Source: a virus
IMG/VR virus record: IMGVR_UViG_3300032316_001298
Span: 1 to 63,729 of that record
Direction: 5' to 3' (one strand)
Length of the DNA: 63,729 nucleotides
The position numbers were made by a program, and so were the translations under genes. Under the pieces are notes generated by a model. That model saw only the letters and a program-made list of their open reading frames with translations. It searched no databases and was not told where the DNA came from. Positions 35,308-58,239 of the stretch are shown in pieces. How positions within the stretch are numbered: the first letter of the stretch is position 1; each line of letters opens with the position of its first letter.

Positions 35308-36196
35308 TAAAGGTGACGCGGCAACAATGAAAACAATGATGCGGCAAATCCAAGGAATTGAAAAAGAATCGCCAGTCTTTCGAGGGACACTCGGGGAAGT
35401 CGACTGTGTAGCGCGTGCCCGCTTGCAGAAGCTCCTCGAAGAGCGCGCGCAGGCTTTGAGGCAGAGGGATGCTGTAGGCGCGGCGGCGCCCGCCTTTGGG
35501 CGCAGGAAAGTGGAGAGTAGCACGCTCCAAGTCGACTTGGGTGCGGAGGTCAATGCGGGTCTCCCGCAGGCGGCAGCCCGTGGCCATACTTATGCGGAAG
35601 GCGCGGCGCATCCAAACGGGCTGAGTGAGGAGCGCGGTTTCAATAAGGCGTTGCTCGGCCTCGTTGATCTCGGGTTTCTCAGCGATGGCGTCGTAGCATG
35701 CTCGGAAGGAATCGAAGACGTTGCGATCAACCAAGCTTCGGACTTTGGCCTCGTTGAGCAAGGTCTTGAGCATTTTGACCTCGCCAGTGGCGGTGTTGTG
35801 GGCGATGTGCTTGCCAGCGGGCCTTTTGTGCGCCGTGCGCCAACGGAGATACGCCTGAGCATGCTCATGGCGAAGGGCGCGCGGATGCGCGAGCTTTTGC
35901 TCGCGGAGATAGAGCGAAAGGTTCCGCCAGCGCAACTCGTAGGCCTCAAGCGTTCGTGGAGCGCGCGCGATGGATTCCAGGAAGGAGGGGACCCAATCCC
36001 ATCCGCTGGCGAGAGCGTGGCGTCCGGCAGGGGCAGACTTTTCGGCGTAGGTGTATTTGGCGAGCAGGGCGGAGGCTCGGCGGCGGTCGTCGGGGTCGTC
36101 AGCGCGCAAGCCGGTGCTGATGTGCCGCCGCTGACCGGACTCGAAAAACGAGAGGTAGTAATAGGGCGAGCGAGGTCGTCGGTAGAGCGAGGCCAT
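35057..36196 (-). CDS. Tyrosine recombinase (phage integrase)
   Basis: 379 residues. N-terminal arm-binding part (MASLYRRPRSPYYYLSFF), SAM-like core-binding domain (about 60-165) and catalytic domain with the complete set: Arg209 (GCRLRE), Lys234 (APKGGRR), His290 and Arg293 (HCCR), His316 (VNHAS) and nucleophile Tyr325 (IYQRV). Residues after about 340 are Pro/Arg-rich and antisense to the xis-like gene. The candidate attP lies 130 bases upstream of its start. This makes the phage temperate. Confidence 0.9.
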   Translation of the reverse strand: MASLYRRPRSPYYYLSFFESGQRRHISTGLRADDPDDRRRASALLAKYTYAEKSAPAGRHALASGWDWVPSFLESIARAPRTLEAYELRWRNLSLYLREQKLAHPRALRHEHAQAYLRWRTAHKRPAGKHIAHNTATGEVKMLKTLLNEAKVRSLVDRNVFDSFRACYDAIAEKPEINEAEQRLIETALLTQPVWMRRAFRISMATGCRLRETRIDLRTQVDLERATLHFPAPKGGRRRAYSIPLPQSLRALFEELLQAGTRYTVDFPECPSKDWRFFFNSLDLPHHCFHCCRVTFITRLARANVPLSVAMRLVNHASLTIHRIYQRVNVDDLRVWSSQMDAAHQPPRSAPPPSPARAAKPRNPRGRSTARLSGTPAAA

Positions 36197-44902: not shown

Positions 44903-45637
44903 TTATGCGCCTGGCTTGAGCGGCATTTGAACATACTTTGTCTCAGCCTTGACGAGCAAGATGGGACTTTCGGCGTCTTTGAGGTAGGCGGTGTCGAACC
45001 CCTGCTTGACGGCTGCGGTGAACCACTCCCGGTTGAGCAGGATGGTGAGTTCGCCGTTGGAGCGAGCGAAGAACGACTCGGTGTAGGTTTTGGCCTTACC
45101 CTTTTCGTTCGGCGACACGGCAGAAACGCCGCTTAGTCCATTACGGACAGTCAGCGTCACGGAGGCGCCTTTGGGTGTTTTGGGCAATGCCTTGAGCGCA
45201 CGGAGTAGTGCTTCGGCCTCGTAGGACAGGTAGACGCACGTGTTTATGTCGGGCATCACCTGTTTGTAGTTCGGGAAGTTCCCCTCGATGGCTTTGACGA
45301 CTTTCTCACCGATGGTATTGGTTAGGCGGAAGTGCCGCTTGTCTTTGCTGGTTTCGATGCGCACGTAATCGTGGGCGCGGAGGAAGCCGCGAACGTCTTG
45401 TTCGGCAGGCAGGATGCTATCGGCCACCGGCTCCAGCTTGAGGCCGGTGCGGTGGTAGAGTTTGCGTCCGTCGGTCGCGACAATACTGTCTTTGTCGAAG
45501 TAGACGCCTTGGAGGACGTAGCGGGTTTGATCCTTGGAGCTAAACGTCATGGCTTCGAGGATGGGACCAGACGGCACGGTGACGCTCTTGCGCCACTCCA
45601 ACGCGTCGCTGGTTGGTAGTATGGTTATGGGTTTCAT
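44903..45637 (-). CDS. DNA sliding clamp (DnaN/beta-like), short form
   Basis: 244 residues from ATG 45637. RYVLQGVYFDKDSIVATDGR, EGNFPNYKQVMP and the end SPILLVKAETKYVQMPLKPG match bacterial beta-clamp strands, the last being the usual C-terminal MPL/MPM motif. Beta clamps have about 366 residues in three domains; this has room for two, so it may assemble as a trimer like T4 gp45/PCNA. No phage polymerase gene is present. Confidence 0.8.
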   Translation of the reverse strand: MKPITILPTSDALEWRKSVTVPSGPILEAMTFSSKDQTRYVLQGVYFDKDSIVATDGRKLYHRTGLKLEPVADSILPAEQDVRGFLRAHDYVRIETSKDKRHFRLTNTIGEKVVKAIEGNFPNYKQVMPDINTCVYLSYEAEALLRALKALPKTPKGASVTLTVRNGLSGVSAVSPNEKGKAKTYTESFFARSNGELTILLNREWFTAAVKQGFDTAYLKDAESPILLVKAETKYVQMPLKPGA

Positions 45638-45664
45638 GAGAAAAATTGACACTGGTAAAGCGGT

Positions 45665-52542: not shown

Positions 52543-54165
52543 CTATGCGGCGAGTTTGCGGATGTTGTTGGTTTTGGTGTTGACGGTGGGGGTGGAGGCG
52601 TTAGTCGCTTTACCGGCGAGGCGGCGGCGGCGCGCTTCGATCTGTTCGATCATGGTGACGCTGGTCGGGGTGAAGCCGGAGAGCGCGTCAACGCAATCCA
52701 CCATGCCGGGGGCGCGGCCTGCGTTGAAGGCGAGTTCGATGGCTTTGCGCCATGCGTCCTCGATTTGGCGACCGGAGAATCCCTCGGTGGCAGCGGCGAG
52801 CGTGGGCAGATCGAACTTGTTGATGTCCCACGGCTCGGTTTGCTCCTCGCGCAGCTTGGGAATGTGGATGCGCCAGATGGCTTCGCGTTCGGCGGCGTTG
52901 GGAAGTTCGACAGACCAGACTTTGAGTCGGTCGATCAGCGGGTCGGGGATGGCGTCGATGTCGTTCGCGGTAAAGACGAAGAAGATCCCGTGCGAGTTGT
53001 ATTGCATATCCTGCAGGATGGATTTGAAGACGCGGTTGGTCGTGCCGCCGTCTGTCTTGCCGCTGGAAGCGGCACCGGAGGTGAGGCCGTCAACCTCGTC
53101 GATCCAGAACACGCAGGGAGCGATGGCTTTGGCGGTGGCGAAGGCGGTGCGCCAGTTGCGTTCGGATTCGCCGACGAGGGAGGCGAAGATGTTACCGGCA
53201 TCGAGGCGCAAGGTCGGGATGCCGAAGTTGCTGCCGCAGACTTGGCTGGTGAGGGATTTGCCGGTGCCCGCTTGGCCGACGAATAGAAAGCCGCGCGGCG
53301 GTTCCACACCGGCACGCCGCGCTTCCGGCGTGAAGAGTTTGCGTTTGGAGAGGAGGTCGGCTTTGAGGACATCGAGGCCGCCGACATCATCAAGGGTCAG
53401 CTTGGGTTCGATGATTTCGAGGAGGCCATTCTTCTTCACGGCGGCAGCTTTCTCGCGGGTGATGATCTTGGTGTCGAAGGTTCCGGTTTCGATGATGGTG
53501 AGGGCGAGGGCATCCTCGGCTTCGTTGGTGGTGAGGCCGGAGAGTGCATCGAGCACCTTGCCCAGCGTTTGCTCATCGGGCATCGGGATCACGCGCGTCA
53601 CATTCCCCTCGGCATCCTTGCGGTCGTTCGACTTACATAAGGTGTCGATCACGCTGGTCAGCTCGTCCCTGGTGGGTAGCTCGAAGTCGAGCAACACGAT
53701 GAGTTTTTCGAGGTCGGGCGGCAGCTTGATGGTCGGACCGAGCAGGATAATACACTTTTGCGATGCTTTGGCGTGCCACAAGACTTCCTTGAACTTCCGG
53801 TAGATGACCGGATTTGGCTGGTCGAGGAAGTGGTGGTAGTCGTTGAGCAGCACAATGGTTTTGTCTGGTGCGGCAATGATGCCATCGAAGACTTCGATGG
53901 GATTGCCGTCCTCGCCGAATCCGGCGCCGGTGTTCACATCGGTGCGTCCGGTCGTGATGCTCCATGAATGGAGATTGTATAGTTGGACGGCAATTTCCGG
54001 TGCGTCGGGAGTCAGTGCGCGCTGTGCTTCTGCTTTCGCCACTTCTTGGTCGTTGAGGTCGGTGATGGCGTGGCGGATCATGGCTTGGCAGCGGTGCTCT
54101 TCGTGCGATTGCAAGGCAAGGCCGGGGTATCCGGCTTTGAGGTAGTTAATAATGCGGGATTTCAT
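52543..54165 (-). CDS. Ycf46-like AAA+ ATPase
   Basis: 540 residues from ATG 54165. Walker A GQAGTGKS (297-304), Walker B VFWIDE (352-357), sensor-1 asparagine in FTANDID (399-404), and an arginine-finger segment DPLIDR (408-413). A 250-residue N-terminal domain and the spacing match plastid/cyanobacterial Ycf46 proteins. In cyanobacteria Ycf46 is linked to stress and carbon regulation, but its biochemical role is not settled. DUF2997 and DUF1257 genes lie close by in the same operon. Confidence 0.8.
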   Translation of the reverse strand: MKSRIINYLKAGYPGLALQSHEEHRCQAMIRHAITDLNDQEVAKAEAQRALTPDAPEIAVQLYNLHSWSITTGRTDVNTGAGFGEDGNPIEVFDGIIAAPDKTIVLLNDYHHFLDQPNPVIYRKFKEVLWHAKASQKCIILLGPTIKLPPDLEKLIVLLDFELPTRDELTSVIDTLCKSNDRKDAEGNVTRVIPMPDEQTLGKVLDALSGLTTNEAEDALALTIIETGTFDTKIITREKAAAVKKNGLLEIIEPKLTLDDVGGLDVLKADLLSKRKLFTPEARRAGVEPPRGFLFVGQAGTGKSLTSQVCGSNFGIPTLRLDAGNIFASLVGESERNWRTAFATAKAIAPCVFWIDEVDGLTSGAASSGKTDGGTTNRVFKSILQDMQYNSHGIFFVFTANDIDAIPDPLIDRLKVWSVELPNAAEREAIWRIHIPKLREEQTEPWDINKFDLPTLAAATEGFSGRQIEDAWRKAIELAFNAGRAPGMVDCVDALSGFTPTSVTMIEQIEARRRRLAGKATNASTPTVNTKTNNIRKLAA

Positions 54166-54349
54166 CGTTGGTTGGTTTGGGAATGTGGCCAAGTTCGCGG
54201 TATTCGACTTCGGCAATTTCTGCGGCTTCAAACTCGTAGCATTGGTATTTGTGCATGAGTTCGTAGATGCGCTGGCGGTAGCGATGGGGGGATCGCACTG
54301 CCGGATGGTTGGGATCGGGCGGATACGGAGCAACAGCGTTGAGCGTCAT
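54146..54349 (-). CDS. Hypothetical protein, 67 residues
   Basis: Overlaps the AAA+ start by 20 bases, so co-translation is likely. HRYRQRIYELMHKYQCYEFE helix and acidic middle. Possibly an AAA+ adaptor by position; unproven. Confidence 0.55.
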   Translation of the reverse strand: MTLNAVAPYPPDPNHPAVRSPHRYRQRIYELMHKYQCYEFEAAEIAEVEYRELGHIPKPTNDEIPHY

Positions 54350-54579
54350 AGTCTTTCAGTGAAATACTCACGTTCCCATGCAAGGCAGGTGGCGCGGTCG
54401 GGGTGGGTGAAGAGGGCTTCGCCCGTGTGGTCCGGCAGGGAGACTTCCCACTCTTGCGATGCGGCGTTGAACTCCACGTGGGAAGCGCGCCGCATGGTCA
54501 TGCGACCGAGATTCAACTTATGTAAGCGGTCATCGTAGAGAGTTACGATGTCCCCTTCGGTGGTGATGGTGAGGGTCAT
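54346..54579 (-). CDS. Hypothetical protein, 77 residues
   Basis: Beta-rich start MTLTITTEGDIVTLYDDRLH, then VEFNAASQEWEVSLPDHTGE, and a CLAWEREYF end. ATGA overlaps on both sides. Unknown. Confidence 0.55.
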   Translation of the reverse strand: MTLTITTEGDIVTLYDDRLHKLNLGRMTMRRASHVEFNAASQEWEVSLPDHTGEALFTHPDRATCLAWEREYFTERL

Positions 54580-54821
54580 GCTGGATGGATTGGAGATTTG
54601 AAATTGGAGATTTCAGAGAAGAAGCGACTAACGTGCTGGCTCCCGATCCACTCGGCGGCGTGGGAGTAGGAATCAAAGGTAGCGACCTGATCAGCAATCC
54701 GGTCGTGGACAACGTAGCGCCGTCGAGAAATGGAATACGGATTAAGCAGGACCAGTTCAAATTCAGCCGATTTGCTGGACGGCTTTGGCTTGCTGGTAGT
54801 ATTCGGGTTTTTTGATGTCAT
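54576..54821 (-). CDS. Hypothetical protein, 81 residues
   Basis: ATG 54821, inside the end of the DUF2997 gene in another frame. Ser/Lys-rich start, then EFELVLLNPYSISRRRYVVH and DQVATFDSYSHAAEWIGS. Unknown. Confidence 0.5.
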   Translation of the reverse strand: MTSKNPNTTSKPKPSSKSAEFELVLLNPYSISRRRYVVHDRIADQVATFDSYSHAAEWIGSQHVSRFFSEISNFKSPIHPA

Positions 54822-54945
54822 GGGAGACGGCTCCGAGGGCTTGCTCGATGGCTTTGGTGGCATCGGTGCAGGACGATCCGGTGAAGCCGTTGGCTTCCAC
54901 GGTGGTCTTGCCCGATTCGTCGATGGTGATTTCGATGGTTTTCAT
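54763..54945 (-). CDS. DUF2997 protein
   Basis: 60 residues from ATG 54945. The N-terminus MKTIEITIDESGKTTVEANG and GSSCTDATKAIEQALG match DUF2997, small proteins found with DUF1257 (Ycf35) and Ycf46-type ATPases in cyanobacteria and phages. Conserved Cys in GSSC. Function unknown. Confidence 0.75.
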   Translation of the reverse strand: MKTIEITIDESGKTTVEANGFTGSSCTDATKAIEQALGAVSHDIKKPEYYQQAKAVQQIG

Positions 54946-55274
54946 GGTTTTCTCCAAGGGAAGATCAGTTTCCAGCCGCCGGAATTGCGGAACCGGCGCA
55001 TAAAGTATTGGATCTGGTTGGCTTCGTGGTGTGGGAGATGCATGAACGGCTTCTCGTCCAGCATGTAGAGGGCGTTGTAGACGGCTTGCCCGCAATTCAG
55101 CGGCGCTGCGGACGGCGAGGGCAGCGGATCGTCCAAGGCGTGAAGATCGGCGGCGATCTCTTGGAGGAGATCGTCGCATAACGTAATCGGTCCGTTTGAG
55201 CTGTAGTCCGCCTCGTGCTTGAGAAACACATCAGCAACTTCGCGGATGGTGATGGCTTGGTCGCTATGGGACAT
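54942..55274 (-). CDS. Hypothetical protein between DUF2997 and DUF1257
   Basis: 110 residues, ATGA overlap with DUF2997 downstream. Residues 1-50 acidic helical; CGQAVYNALYMLDEKPFMHL and FMRRFRNSGGWKL later. Embedded in the Ycf46 module, so possibly part of it. Confidence 0.55.
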   Translation of the reverse strand: MSHSDQAITIREVADVFLKHEADYSSNGPITLCDDLLQEIAADLHALDDPLPSPSAAPLNCGQAVYNALYMLDEKPFMHLPHHEANQIQYFMRRFRNSGGWKLIFPWRKP

Positions 55275-55701
55275 TGATGGTGAGTTTGGTTTTGCCGTTG
55301 AGGTCGCGGCGGGTGTAGGTCCAGCCTTGCTTCTTGGCTTGTTGGATGGCGGCGTGGGTGGCGTAGGCTCGTTTCAGCTTGGTGCCTTCGTTGCCGCCGA
55401 TGGCGTTGCTGATCGGTCGGCCTTGGGCGCCGTAGAAGTCGAAGAGCAGGGTGTAGTGGCTGTGACCACGGGCACGGGCCACGCCGATTTCCCAGGTGGT
55501 GCCGGGGACTTTGATGGCGTGTTGGCAATGGCCGAGGTCGTGCTGGGTGAAACCTTGCGGCAACGGGTAGTCGCCTACATGGGTGCCGAACCAGTTGTAG
55601 GATTTCTGGTCGCGGACGAGGGTGAGGCCGAGTTCGCGGCAAGCCGCGTCGAGGGCGTCAAGGTCGGTGATTTGCAGTTGGATTTTGGCAACGTGTGACA
55701 T
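55264..55701 (-). CDS. DUF1257 (Ycf35-like) protein
   Basis: 145 residues from ATG 55701. MSHVAKIQLQITDLDALDAA, CRELGLTLVRDQKSYNWFG and the C-terminal KLKRAYATHAAIQQAKKQGW fit DUF1257/Ycf35. This family occurs with DUF2997 and often a ferredoxin gene in cyanobacteria. Here it is associated with a Ycf46-type ATPase. Role unknown. Confidence 0.8.
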   Translation of the reverse strand: MSHVAKIQLQITDLDALDAACRELGLTLVRDQKSYNWFGTHVGDYPLPQGFTQHDLGHCQHAIKVPGTTWEIGVARARGHSHYTLLFDFYGAQGRPISNAIGGNEGTKLKRAYATHAAIQQAKKQGWTYTRRDLNGKTKLTINVP

Positions 55702-55852
55702 AAGCGGTTTGGTGAAGAAGGGCGCGCACTTGCGAGGCCCAGAGGTAAGTAGAATCGTCCTCCCCCCACTGGACGGCGAGAGAGTCAAGGCTCTCGCCGT
55801 CGGTGAGGAGAAGGTCGGCTTCCTGCAAGAGATGCCGGATGATGAAGTTCAC
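55658..55852 (-). CDS. Hypothetical protein, 64 residues
   Basis: MNFIIRHLLQEADLLLTDGE then STYLWASQVRALLHQTAYVT. Overlaps DUF1257 start by 44 bases and the gene upstream by ATGA. Unknown. Confidence 0.5.
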   Translation of the reverse strand: MNFIIRHLLQEADLLLTDGESLDSLAVQWGEDDSTYLWASQVRALLHQTAYVTRCQNPTANHRP

Positions 55853-56724
55853 GCGGCGAGCTTGCGGTTGCCGAGGCCGCCGAAGGTGTCGGCGATGATT
55901 TTGCCTTTGTTGGCGATGATGCTGCGGTTGACGGCGCTCTCGCGGAGGATGTCGGGTGCAACGAGCAGGTCGGATTGGCAGCGTTGGACGAGGCTGGCAA
56001 GGGTCGGATCGTTAGTGAGGTTGAAGGCCGGAACGAGCTTGAGCAGTTCCGCGAGGTTCTCGATGAGGCTGTCGTAGATTTTCGTGCTGGGACGAGTCAG
56101 GACATCGGTGATGTGGGCGACCTGTGTAAGCACGCGCTCCATGGCTTGTTTGACGCCGTTTTGGGCGGCGATTTCGACCTGACGGGCGAGGTTAGCCTGG
56201 ACGGCGGCGGTTTGCTCTTGGCCGAGGTATTTGACCAGCATGTCCGAGCTTCGGGGCAGCGGCGCGGTGGCCAAGGAGAAGCTAAAGCGTGAGCGGACGT
56301 TGTGCTCGCTTGGGTAGTTGCCGCGGTCGAAGGTGCCGTTGAGCACTCCGGCGCAGTCGGCGAGGATCTGCGGGAAGCGGACGGCAAAGTAGTCGGCTTC
56401 GTCGTCGAACTTGCGGCGGTAGTCCTCCATGCGGGAGTTGTAGTCGGAGTAGGCCACGGAGGGCAGCAAGTCGCCAAAGGAGGAGCGCAATGTCTGCATC
56501 CCGTGGAACTTGCGGGCTTGGGTGACGATACTTTGGATGGCGGCGAGGGGCGAAGGCTTGCCGTCTTTGGACGGGTAGAGCTTCTTTACCCAAGCGCCGC
56601 CGTCGCGTCCGATGCTGTGCTCGGACTGCACTTCGGTGGTGATATTCTCGTCAGTTACGGACTTGCCAACCATGGAAATGGTCGGCTTAACGACGAGCAC
56701 CTTTGAGGCGATGGTGTCGATCAT
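55849..56724 (-). CDS. DUF3150-like protein
   Basis: 291 residues from ATG 56724; a TTG start at 56754 is possible. Long helical protein (SRMEDYRRKFDDEADYFAVR, VQANLARQVEIAAQNGVKQA, YDSLIENLAELLKLVPAFNL) resembling DUF3150-type phage proteins often coded near AAA+ ATPases. First gene of this operon, behind the hairpin at 56780. Possible partner of the Ycf46-like ATPase. Confidence 0.5.
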   Translation of the reverse strand: MIDTIASKVLVVKPTISMVGKSVTDENITTEVQSEHSIGRDGGAWVKKLYPSKDGKPSPLAAIQSIVTQARKFHGMQTLRSSFGDLLPSVAYSDYNSRMEDYRRKFDDEADYFAVRFPQILADCAGVLNGTFDRGNYPSEHNVRSRFSFSLATAPLPRSSDMLVKYLGQEQTAAVQANLARQVEIAAQNGVKQAMERVLTQVAHITDVLTRPSTKIYDSLIENLAELLKLVPAFNLTNDPTLASLVQRCQSDLLVAPDILRESAVNRSIIANKGKIIADTFGGLGNRKLAA

Positions 56725-56754: not shown

Positions 56755-56816
56755 CGGGGTAAGTCCGCGAACGCGAGCGGACTTACAAAAGTCGGGGCTG
56801 GATCTGGAGGCGCTGT
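56755..56816 (-). promoter_or_regulatory. Leader with conserved TTGT-loop hairpin, copy 1
   Basis: Read on the minus strand, GACTT-TTGT-AAGTC (56780-56793) lies about 55 bases before the DUF3150-like start. Flanking bases CCAGATCC and CGCGGACTTAC are shared with the copy at 58226. A leader RNA element or protein-binding site. Confidence 0.6.
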
Positions 56817-57973: not shown

Positions 57974-58174
57974 TCAGGCCGACCAATCCTTGCTGCCGAT
58001 GACAACGGCATTGCCGGAGACTTGCAGCCGGATGCCGTTGGGCAGAGTGATTTTGCCGTTGAGGTTGTAGCCGACAGAACCCGTGGAATACTGCATGGCT
58101 TTGGCCGACACGGGCTGGCCTTCGACAAGCACTTGGGGAGTGAGTGACGAAGTGAGGAACGAGTGTTTGCTCAT
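57974..58174 (-). CDS. Beta-rich hypothetical protein, 66 residues
   Basis: MSKHSFLTSSLTPQVLVEGQ then STGSVGYNLNGKITLPNGIR and LQVSGNAVVIGSKDW. A single small beta domain; monocistronic, with a hairpin leader and its own terminator, so likely separately regulated and perhaps abundant. Function unknown. Confidence 0.6.
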   Translation of the reverse strand: MSKHSFLTSSLTPQVLVEGQPVSAKAMQYSTGSVGYNLNGKITLPNGIRLQVSGNAVVIGSKDWSA

Positions 58175-58225
58175 AGTGTTGGATGGTTGCGTTCTCTACG
58201 TGGAGATAAGCCCGCGAGAACAACG

Positions 58226-58239
58226 GACTTACAAAAGTC
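58226..58239 (-). promoter_or_regulatory. TTGT-loop hairpin, copy 2
   Basis: GACTT-TTGT-AAGTC on the minus strand, 52 bases before the start at 58174. CCAGACCC before and TCGCGGGCTTATC after match copy 1 at 56780. The rest of the 341-bp gap holds a second strong hairpin (58273-58302, GGGCCATCC/GGATGGCCC) and the terminator below; no gene seen. Confidence 0.6.

Follow-up and report, generated by a model that had tools for sequence, protein, structure and literature searches.

Organization of the Operon

The stretch of DNA analysed here, termed the window, is a 63.7-kb virus record (IMG/VR record IMGVR_UViG_3300032316_001298, 63,729 nucleotides in full). Its genes include those for a terminase, a portal, a baseplate wedge and a primase, and its source is most likely a contractile-tailed phage. 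Between positions 56724 and 52543, nine overlapping open reading frames (ORFs) run along the minus strand. They encode, in this order, a DUF3150-like protein, a protein of 64 amino acids (aa), a DUF1257 protein, a 110-aa protein, a DUF2997 protein, three further small proteins (81, 77 and 67 aa) and an ATPase (Table 1). This operon, and the C-terminal tail shared by its first and last products, are the subject of the present analysis. The position of the module, its small overlapping genes and its DUF3150-like protein, all reported in an initial annotation, are thus confirmed.

The initial annotation also named three families known from cyanobacteria and plastids: Ycf46, Ycf35 (DUF1257) and DUF2997. 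In profile hidden Markov model searches, the AAA domain and DUF2997 are matched directly by Pfam in the window proteins, whereas DUF1257 falls below the Pfam cut-off when taken alone but aligns with above-threshold phage members. The DUF3150-like protein and the small proteins, each searched alone, give no significant Pfam match. To our knowledge, the role of Ycf46, Ycf35 and DUF2997 in cyanobacteria and plastids has long lacked an explanation. No paper describing the phage module was found among the open-access literature searched.

Table 1. Features of the operon and its upstream region, in the order in which they lie on the minus strand.
Feature	Position	Strand	Basis
Inverted repeat, 10-bp stem, terminator-like by pattern	56759..56786	-	34 nucleotides ahead of the first ATG
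DUF3150-family protein, 291 aa; alpha/beta in the N part, helical in the C part, disordered tail ending LGNRKLAA	55849..56724	-	Pfam matches of relatives, AlphaFold2, fold match
RKLAA codons of the DUF3150 tail	55852..55866	-	
Small protein, 64 aa; conserved solely in the two nearest relatives	55658..55852	-	tblastn
DUF1257 (Ycf35-like) protein, 145 aa	55264..55701	-	Pfam PF06868 below threshold; aligns with phage proteins that exceed it
Small protein, 110 aa; found in locus L003 only	54942..55274	-	tblastn
DUF2997 protein, 60 aa; family-invariant Cys (GFTGSSC), KPEYY motif	54763..54945	-	Pfam PF11211 (8.7e-18), alignment
Small protein, 81 aa; start uncertain, variable	54576..54821	-	Conserved in relatives over the first ~20 residues only
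s77, 77 aa; homologous to 'e' (~85-140 aa), a protein found with the module in many other phages	54346..54579	-	Alignment; profile matches in 15/70 viral loci; phrog_38408 (3e-4)
Small protein, 67 aa; solely in the two nearest relatives	54146..54349	-	tblastn
AAA ATPase, 540 aa; degenerate D1 (~1-245), active D2 (~246-520), disordered C-tail ending NNIRKLAA	52543..54165	-	Pfam, PHROG, AlphaFold2, p97 alignment
RKLAA codons of the ATPase tail	52546..52560	-	

The ATPase

The ATPase is matched by PF00004 in Pfam (1.3e-21) and by phrog_8638 in PHROG (1.8e-86), and its AlphaFold2 model has a predicted local distance difference test (pLDDT) score of 91.9. Residues 1-520 of the model align with residues 212-763 of p97/Cdc48, covering both AAA rings (Z 27.2, root-mean-square deviation 8.7, 449 residues). 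The D2 part alone aligns with p97 at about Z 26 and a deviation of 2.4-2.8. Across 51 relatives, D2 keeps its Walker A (GQAGTGKS), Walker B (DE) and sensor 1 (TAN) motifs and the arginine finger R413. At the Walker A position of D1, the sequence is TxEExR. Because of these two features and the p97 alignment, the ATPase is, on the modelled structure, a double-ring remodeller with a nucleotide-dead D1 and an intact D2.

The protein therefore has both marks of the classic AAA proteins of the Cdc48/Ycf46 type, namely an intact D2 and a degenerate AAA domain N-terminal to it. A profile of the N-terminal domain (D1) in the viral family matches cyanobacterial plasmid ATPases that adjoin DUF1257 and DUF2997 (E about 1e-52), and the degenerate D1 is common to these and the phage protein. 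By this match, the label Ycf46 appears to fit the phage ATPase.

Two other assignments were considered. The ATPase scores 63 bits against the NCBIfam IteA model, for which the cut-off is 510, and no protease-family match is present among the operon proteins in Pfam, so that the module does not qualify as the IetAS anti-phage system of an IetA ATPase and an IetS protease. The PADLOC matches of the ATPase to IetA are generic AAA matches. With a classic AAA protein as its ATPase and no VWA match among the operon proteins, the module does not belong to the MoxR-VWA systems.

The DUF1257-DUF2997 Pair and DUF3150

The DUF2997 protein scores 64.4 bits against PF11211, well above the Pfam gathering cut-off of 24.1. 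The window DUF1257 protein alone reaches 17.2 bits against PF06868, where the cut-off is 22.2. Its alignment includes a phage member at 37.1 bits, which adjoins the same ATPase and DUF2997, and members above the threshold occur in Rhizobium phage. Through these relatives, the sequence-based identity of the window protein as DUF1257 is secure. Natural fusions of DUF1257 and DUF2997 exist in L070 and L086/L090, with a probable further case in L026, a sign that the two proteins work as a pair. The same fusions caused the iterated profiles of the two families to merge, and all counts given below rest on un-iterated profiles. A sequence search of the PDB returned no credible relative for the pair.

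The window DUF3150 protein is not matched by PF11348 on its own, but 19 of the 29 aligned relatives are (best 1e-24). Its AlphaFold2 model (pLDDT 90.4, with residues 286-291 below 50) resembles a DUF3150 protein with a template modelling score of 0.82 (E 1.7e-16). The assignment to DUF3150 is thus secure through the sequences of the relatives and the predicted fold. No credible DUF3150 relative was found in a sequence search of the PDB, and the fold matches obtained there are helical-bundle background. A tblastn search of the phage collection with a viral DUF3150 found nothing. In Rhizobium-type phages, the slot of DUF3150 is occupied by a partner, X, for which no homology to DUF3150 could be detected.

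Recurrence of the Module in Viruses and Plasmids

The ATPase family led to 70 non-redundant viral loci, in which the recurrence of the module was surveyed. DUF1257 and DUF2997 each occur in 30 of these and together in 27, DUF3150 occurs in 31, a Corndog-type partner in 19 and the s77 family in 15. At least one partner family lies nearby in 61 of the loci. Reversed decoys gave no matches for DUF1257, DUF2997 and s77, and a single one for DUF3150. Gene calls with a floor of 60 aa were set aside, as they dropped DUF2997 and undercounted the module.

The core operon is kept in two close relatives of the window. Cultured phages of Rhizobium, Rhodobacter, Pseudomonas (Samunavirus) and Aeromonas carry, in this order, the ATPase, X, DUF1257, DUF2997 and the small 'e' protein, with an occasional extra gene, and Agrobacterium phage JP1 has a similar order with the 'e' homologue further along. 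In an archaeal virus, the Acidianus tailed spindle virus (L012, 2446-4673), an AAA gene is followed by DUF1257 (E 1.6e-4) and DUF2997 (E 1.7e-8); this ATPase is not matched by the D1 profile. The core is also found on plasmids of cyanobacteria, Bacillus, Paenibacillus, Rhodococcus and Candidatus Manganitrophus, the last of which adds DUF3150. On a Pseudanabaena plasmid (L097, 1134-6533), genes for GrpE, an Hsp70-like protein and an ATP-binding protein are interleaved with the module.

The grouping of ATPase, DUF1257 and DUF2997 therefore recurs well beyond the window. The initial annotation had gone further and envisaged a self-contained, phage-borne machine that would remodel something during infection. 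This view is supported in part. The intact Cdc48-like ATPase, the recurrent partners, the DUF1257-DUF2997 fusions and the single overlapping operon speak for a self-contained remodelling machine. The module is not specific to phages, being carried by plasmids as well.

A Shared C-Terminal Tail

Among the 936 ORFs of the window, the ATPase and DUF3150 are the sole two whose products end in RKLAA. The tail score of this pair is 38, and the next best of the 936 ORFs scores 17. Both tails are predicted to be disordered in the AlphaFold2 models. The window tails differ in just two of the five RKLAA codons. Duplication of DNA is not plainly the source of the match, as the codons differ in L047 and L068.

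Since the window tail ends in LAA, it could be read as an ssrA-like degron, through which a host protease such as ClpXP would limit the amounts of the ATPase and DUF3150. However, the relatives end in KVTLN, KRKVIL, RTLDL and other sequences that are not ssrA-like, and the match within each genome persists. A degron is thus very improbable.

The tails of the viral loci were described by the motif R-x-[ILV]-x-hydrophobic within the last 14 residues. It is present in 37 of 82 ATPases and 17 of 33 DUF3150 proteins, compared with 38 of 1325 other ORFs and none of the 50 DUF1257/DUF2997 proteins. A percentile test that compared tail similarity with other loci was rejected as having the wrong null, since other loci have similar DUF3150 tails, and was replaced by a within-locus rank test and a cluster-level test. 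In the former, with 10-residue tails, the tail closest to that of the ATPase belongs to DUF3150 alone in 19 of 31 loci, where 2.9 are expected (P 5e-13). When loci are clustered at 50% identity, DUF3150 is best in about 9 of 14 clusters (expected 1.6, P about 1e-5 with 8- or 10-residue tails).

The letters of the tail differ between lineages and match inside a genome, as with RKIAKAA in both proteins of L016 and RKVTLS with RKVIL in L068. Similar tails are carried by X of the Rhizobium-type phages. In the satellite phage Javan368, the ATPase ends in TRKVLV and a nearby 573-aa protein in NRKIKI, and a Rhodococcus plasmid pairs GRRLEF with GGRTFEF. Six further loci (L040, L041, L042, L049, L050 and L069) hold ATPase relatives with basic tails of the VRKL/VRVL type, and the known partner families do not lie nearby.

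On plasmids, DUF3150 also sits between a MoxR-type ATPase and a VWA protein, and relatives of one such DUF3150 are present in more than one thousand plasmid records. There, the ends of DUF3150 pair with those of its neighbours as SNWF/VNWF (with a WGR protein), AFCV/EFCL and GLRMTI/GLTMTM. On the IncC plasmid pAR060302 (L115, 24660-29793), two aromatic residues form the C-terminus of four proteins, namely a 302-aa protein, Bet, Exo and DUF3150. One more protein with such an end lies at 35612.

Proposed Function

It is proposed, with a probability of roughly 0.42, that the module encodes a Cdc48-like remodeller whose DUF1257-DUF2997 adaptor acts on proteins that bear an operon-specific C-terminal tag. 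The pair would read the tag and deliver DUF3150, as the client or the holder of a client, to the pore of the ATPase along with whatever DUF3150 holds, for unfolding or disassembly. The ATPase's own tail may compete for the reader, and the machine would then stay in an assembled or restrained state for as long as no client displaces this tail. A complex that works in early phage DNA metabolism is the likely client, because replication genes adjoin the module in several phages and because Bet and Exo have tag-like ends in the MoxR-DUF3150-VWA plasmid operons.

A number of points weigh against this proposal. The role of the pair as the tag reader is a guess. In the window ATPase, an Asp occupies the first of the two usual arginine-finger positions and a Leu the main pore-loop position. 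About one third of the DUF3150 loci have no clear tail match, and the cluster-level P falls to 0.002 when 12-residue tails are used. Basic C-termini are frequent among phage proteins, and the motif is itself basic and short. The tail pairs of the MoxR-VWA operons were spotted by eye, apart from one Fisher test on one plasmid region: on pAR060302, aromatic ends occur in 4 of 7 operon genes and 1 of 42 others (P 8e-4), with groups that were picked after looking.

The brevity of the motif, its absence from some loci and the sensitivity to tail length would all be expected if the module were real and the shared tail incidental, a product of generic basic, disordered C-termini or of lineage effects. 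This is unlikely, as the motif is found in just 2.9% of the other ORFs of the same loci and the tails vary between lineages yet match within a genome. Tails of a similar kind also end X, for which no homology to DUF3150 could be detected. Within the literature searched, the idea of a shared tag is new; it has statistical backing in viruses, and its mechanism is a hypothesis.

Alternatively, the machine might dismantle a host complex during infection, as a means of host takeover or counter-defence. The operon is of an early type and lies on the strand opposite to the structural genes, several of its small proteins change fast, and the module is widely spread on mobile elements. Nevertheless, the same core is present on plasmids, related ycf genes exist in cyanobacteria and plastids, and the IetA matches in PADLOC reflect AAA proteins in general; a role in takeover is accordingly rather improbable.

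The Cdc48-like architecture, the fusions and a tagged partner in fast-evolving viruses give a concrete and testable model for the tagged-client reading, composed of an adaptor pair, a tag and a client. A wider version of it is tentative. Under it, mobile elements would use a transferable address code, every operon marking the partners of its AAA+ machine with matching C-terminal tags particular to its lineage. Two unrelated AAA+ machines, one Cdc48-like with DUF1257-DUF2997 and the other MoxR with VWA, may both act on tagged DUF3150 and, in plasmids, on recombination proteins marked likewise. If true, the code would be a compact addressing system for AAA+ machines that is readable from sequence alone, and it would connect the phage modules to recombination operons on conjugative plasmids.

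Relation to Known Systems

The p97/Cdc48 unfoldases, whose cofactors bind the C-terminal tail, resemble the phage ATPase in their tandem AAA domains (residues 1-520 of the latter) and in the disordered tail that follows D2. Unlike p97, the phage protein has a nucleotide-dead D1 and lacks a p97-type N domain before it, and its partners are DUF1257, DUF2997 and DUF3150 rather than Ufd1/Npl4 or PUB-domain proteins.

The MoxR-DUF3150-VWA (cobS/cobT-like) operons of IncC and other plasmids share with the module a DUF3150, an AAA+ ATPase and an apparent sharing of C-tails between DUF3150 and its operon mates. They differ in that the ATPase is of the MoxR type, VWA takes the place of DUF1257-DUF2997, and the tails are mostly aromatic or acidic, not basic. 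In the AAA locus of the Corndog group of mycobacteriophages (Dylan genes 95-92), the ATPase is related over most of its length. The partner there is weakly DUF3150-like (hhalign E 0.001 but a probability of 20%; Foldseek E 0.013), and in contrast to the phage module the locus has a diverged MPCDT-type small protein and no recognisable DUF2997.

The small families of the module, Ycf35 (DUF1257) and DUF2997, are those of cyanobacteria and plastids. In Synechocystis, ycf46 (slr0374) is part of a stress operon (PMC7496141), apart from duf2997-ycf35, which adjoin fed7 (PMC4284462), whereas the phage holds the ATPase, DUF1257 and DUF2997 in one operon with DUF3150. Published work on the Synechocystis protein (PMC7496141, citing Jiang 2015) records stress induction of Ycf46 and an effect on carbonic anhydrase activity, and gives no mechanism.

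As fed7 is a ferredoxin gene, its position next to duf2997-ycf35 bears on the main rival to the tagged-client reading, that of cofactor or metal-centre maturation. The ATPase, DUF1257 and DUF2997 would then resemble the MoxR-VWA chelatases and activases of the CobS/CobT and BchI/BchD type, and serve to insert or repair the metal or radical centre of a client enzyme. The invariant Cys of DUF2997 and the pairing of DUF3150 with MoxR-VWA are in keeping with this, as are plasmid versions beside NrdG/PflA-like radical SAM proteins. However, this Cys is single, the ATPase is a Cdc48-type double ring and not a MoxR protein, and the window operon contains no recognised ferredoxin or radical SAM gene, nor is one named in the phage modules that are annotated. 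Maturation of a cofactor is thus an unlikely function for the module. In L101, L103, L102 and L100, which are plasmids of Gram-positive bacteria and Treponema, the ATPase module has such radical SAM proteins nearby.

Flanking Features

Elsewhere in the window, an ORF on the minus strand (44903-45652) resembles a DNA sliding clamp by eye.

The initial annotation described a hairpin leader upstream of the operon. A stem is present (Table 1), although its appearance suggests an upstream terminator or a small repeat rather than a leader relevant to the machine. The repeat with its 10-bp stem is kept in L002 and has lost one base in L003. Part of it is a 15-nucleotide element, GACTTTTGTAAGTCC, at 56779-56793, which appears again at 58225-58239. 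The second copy lies upstream of a small minus-strand ORF (57974-58174), and the element is present in L002 and L003 too.

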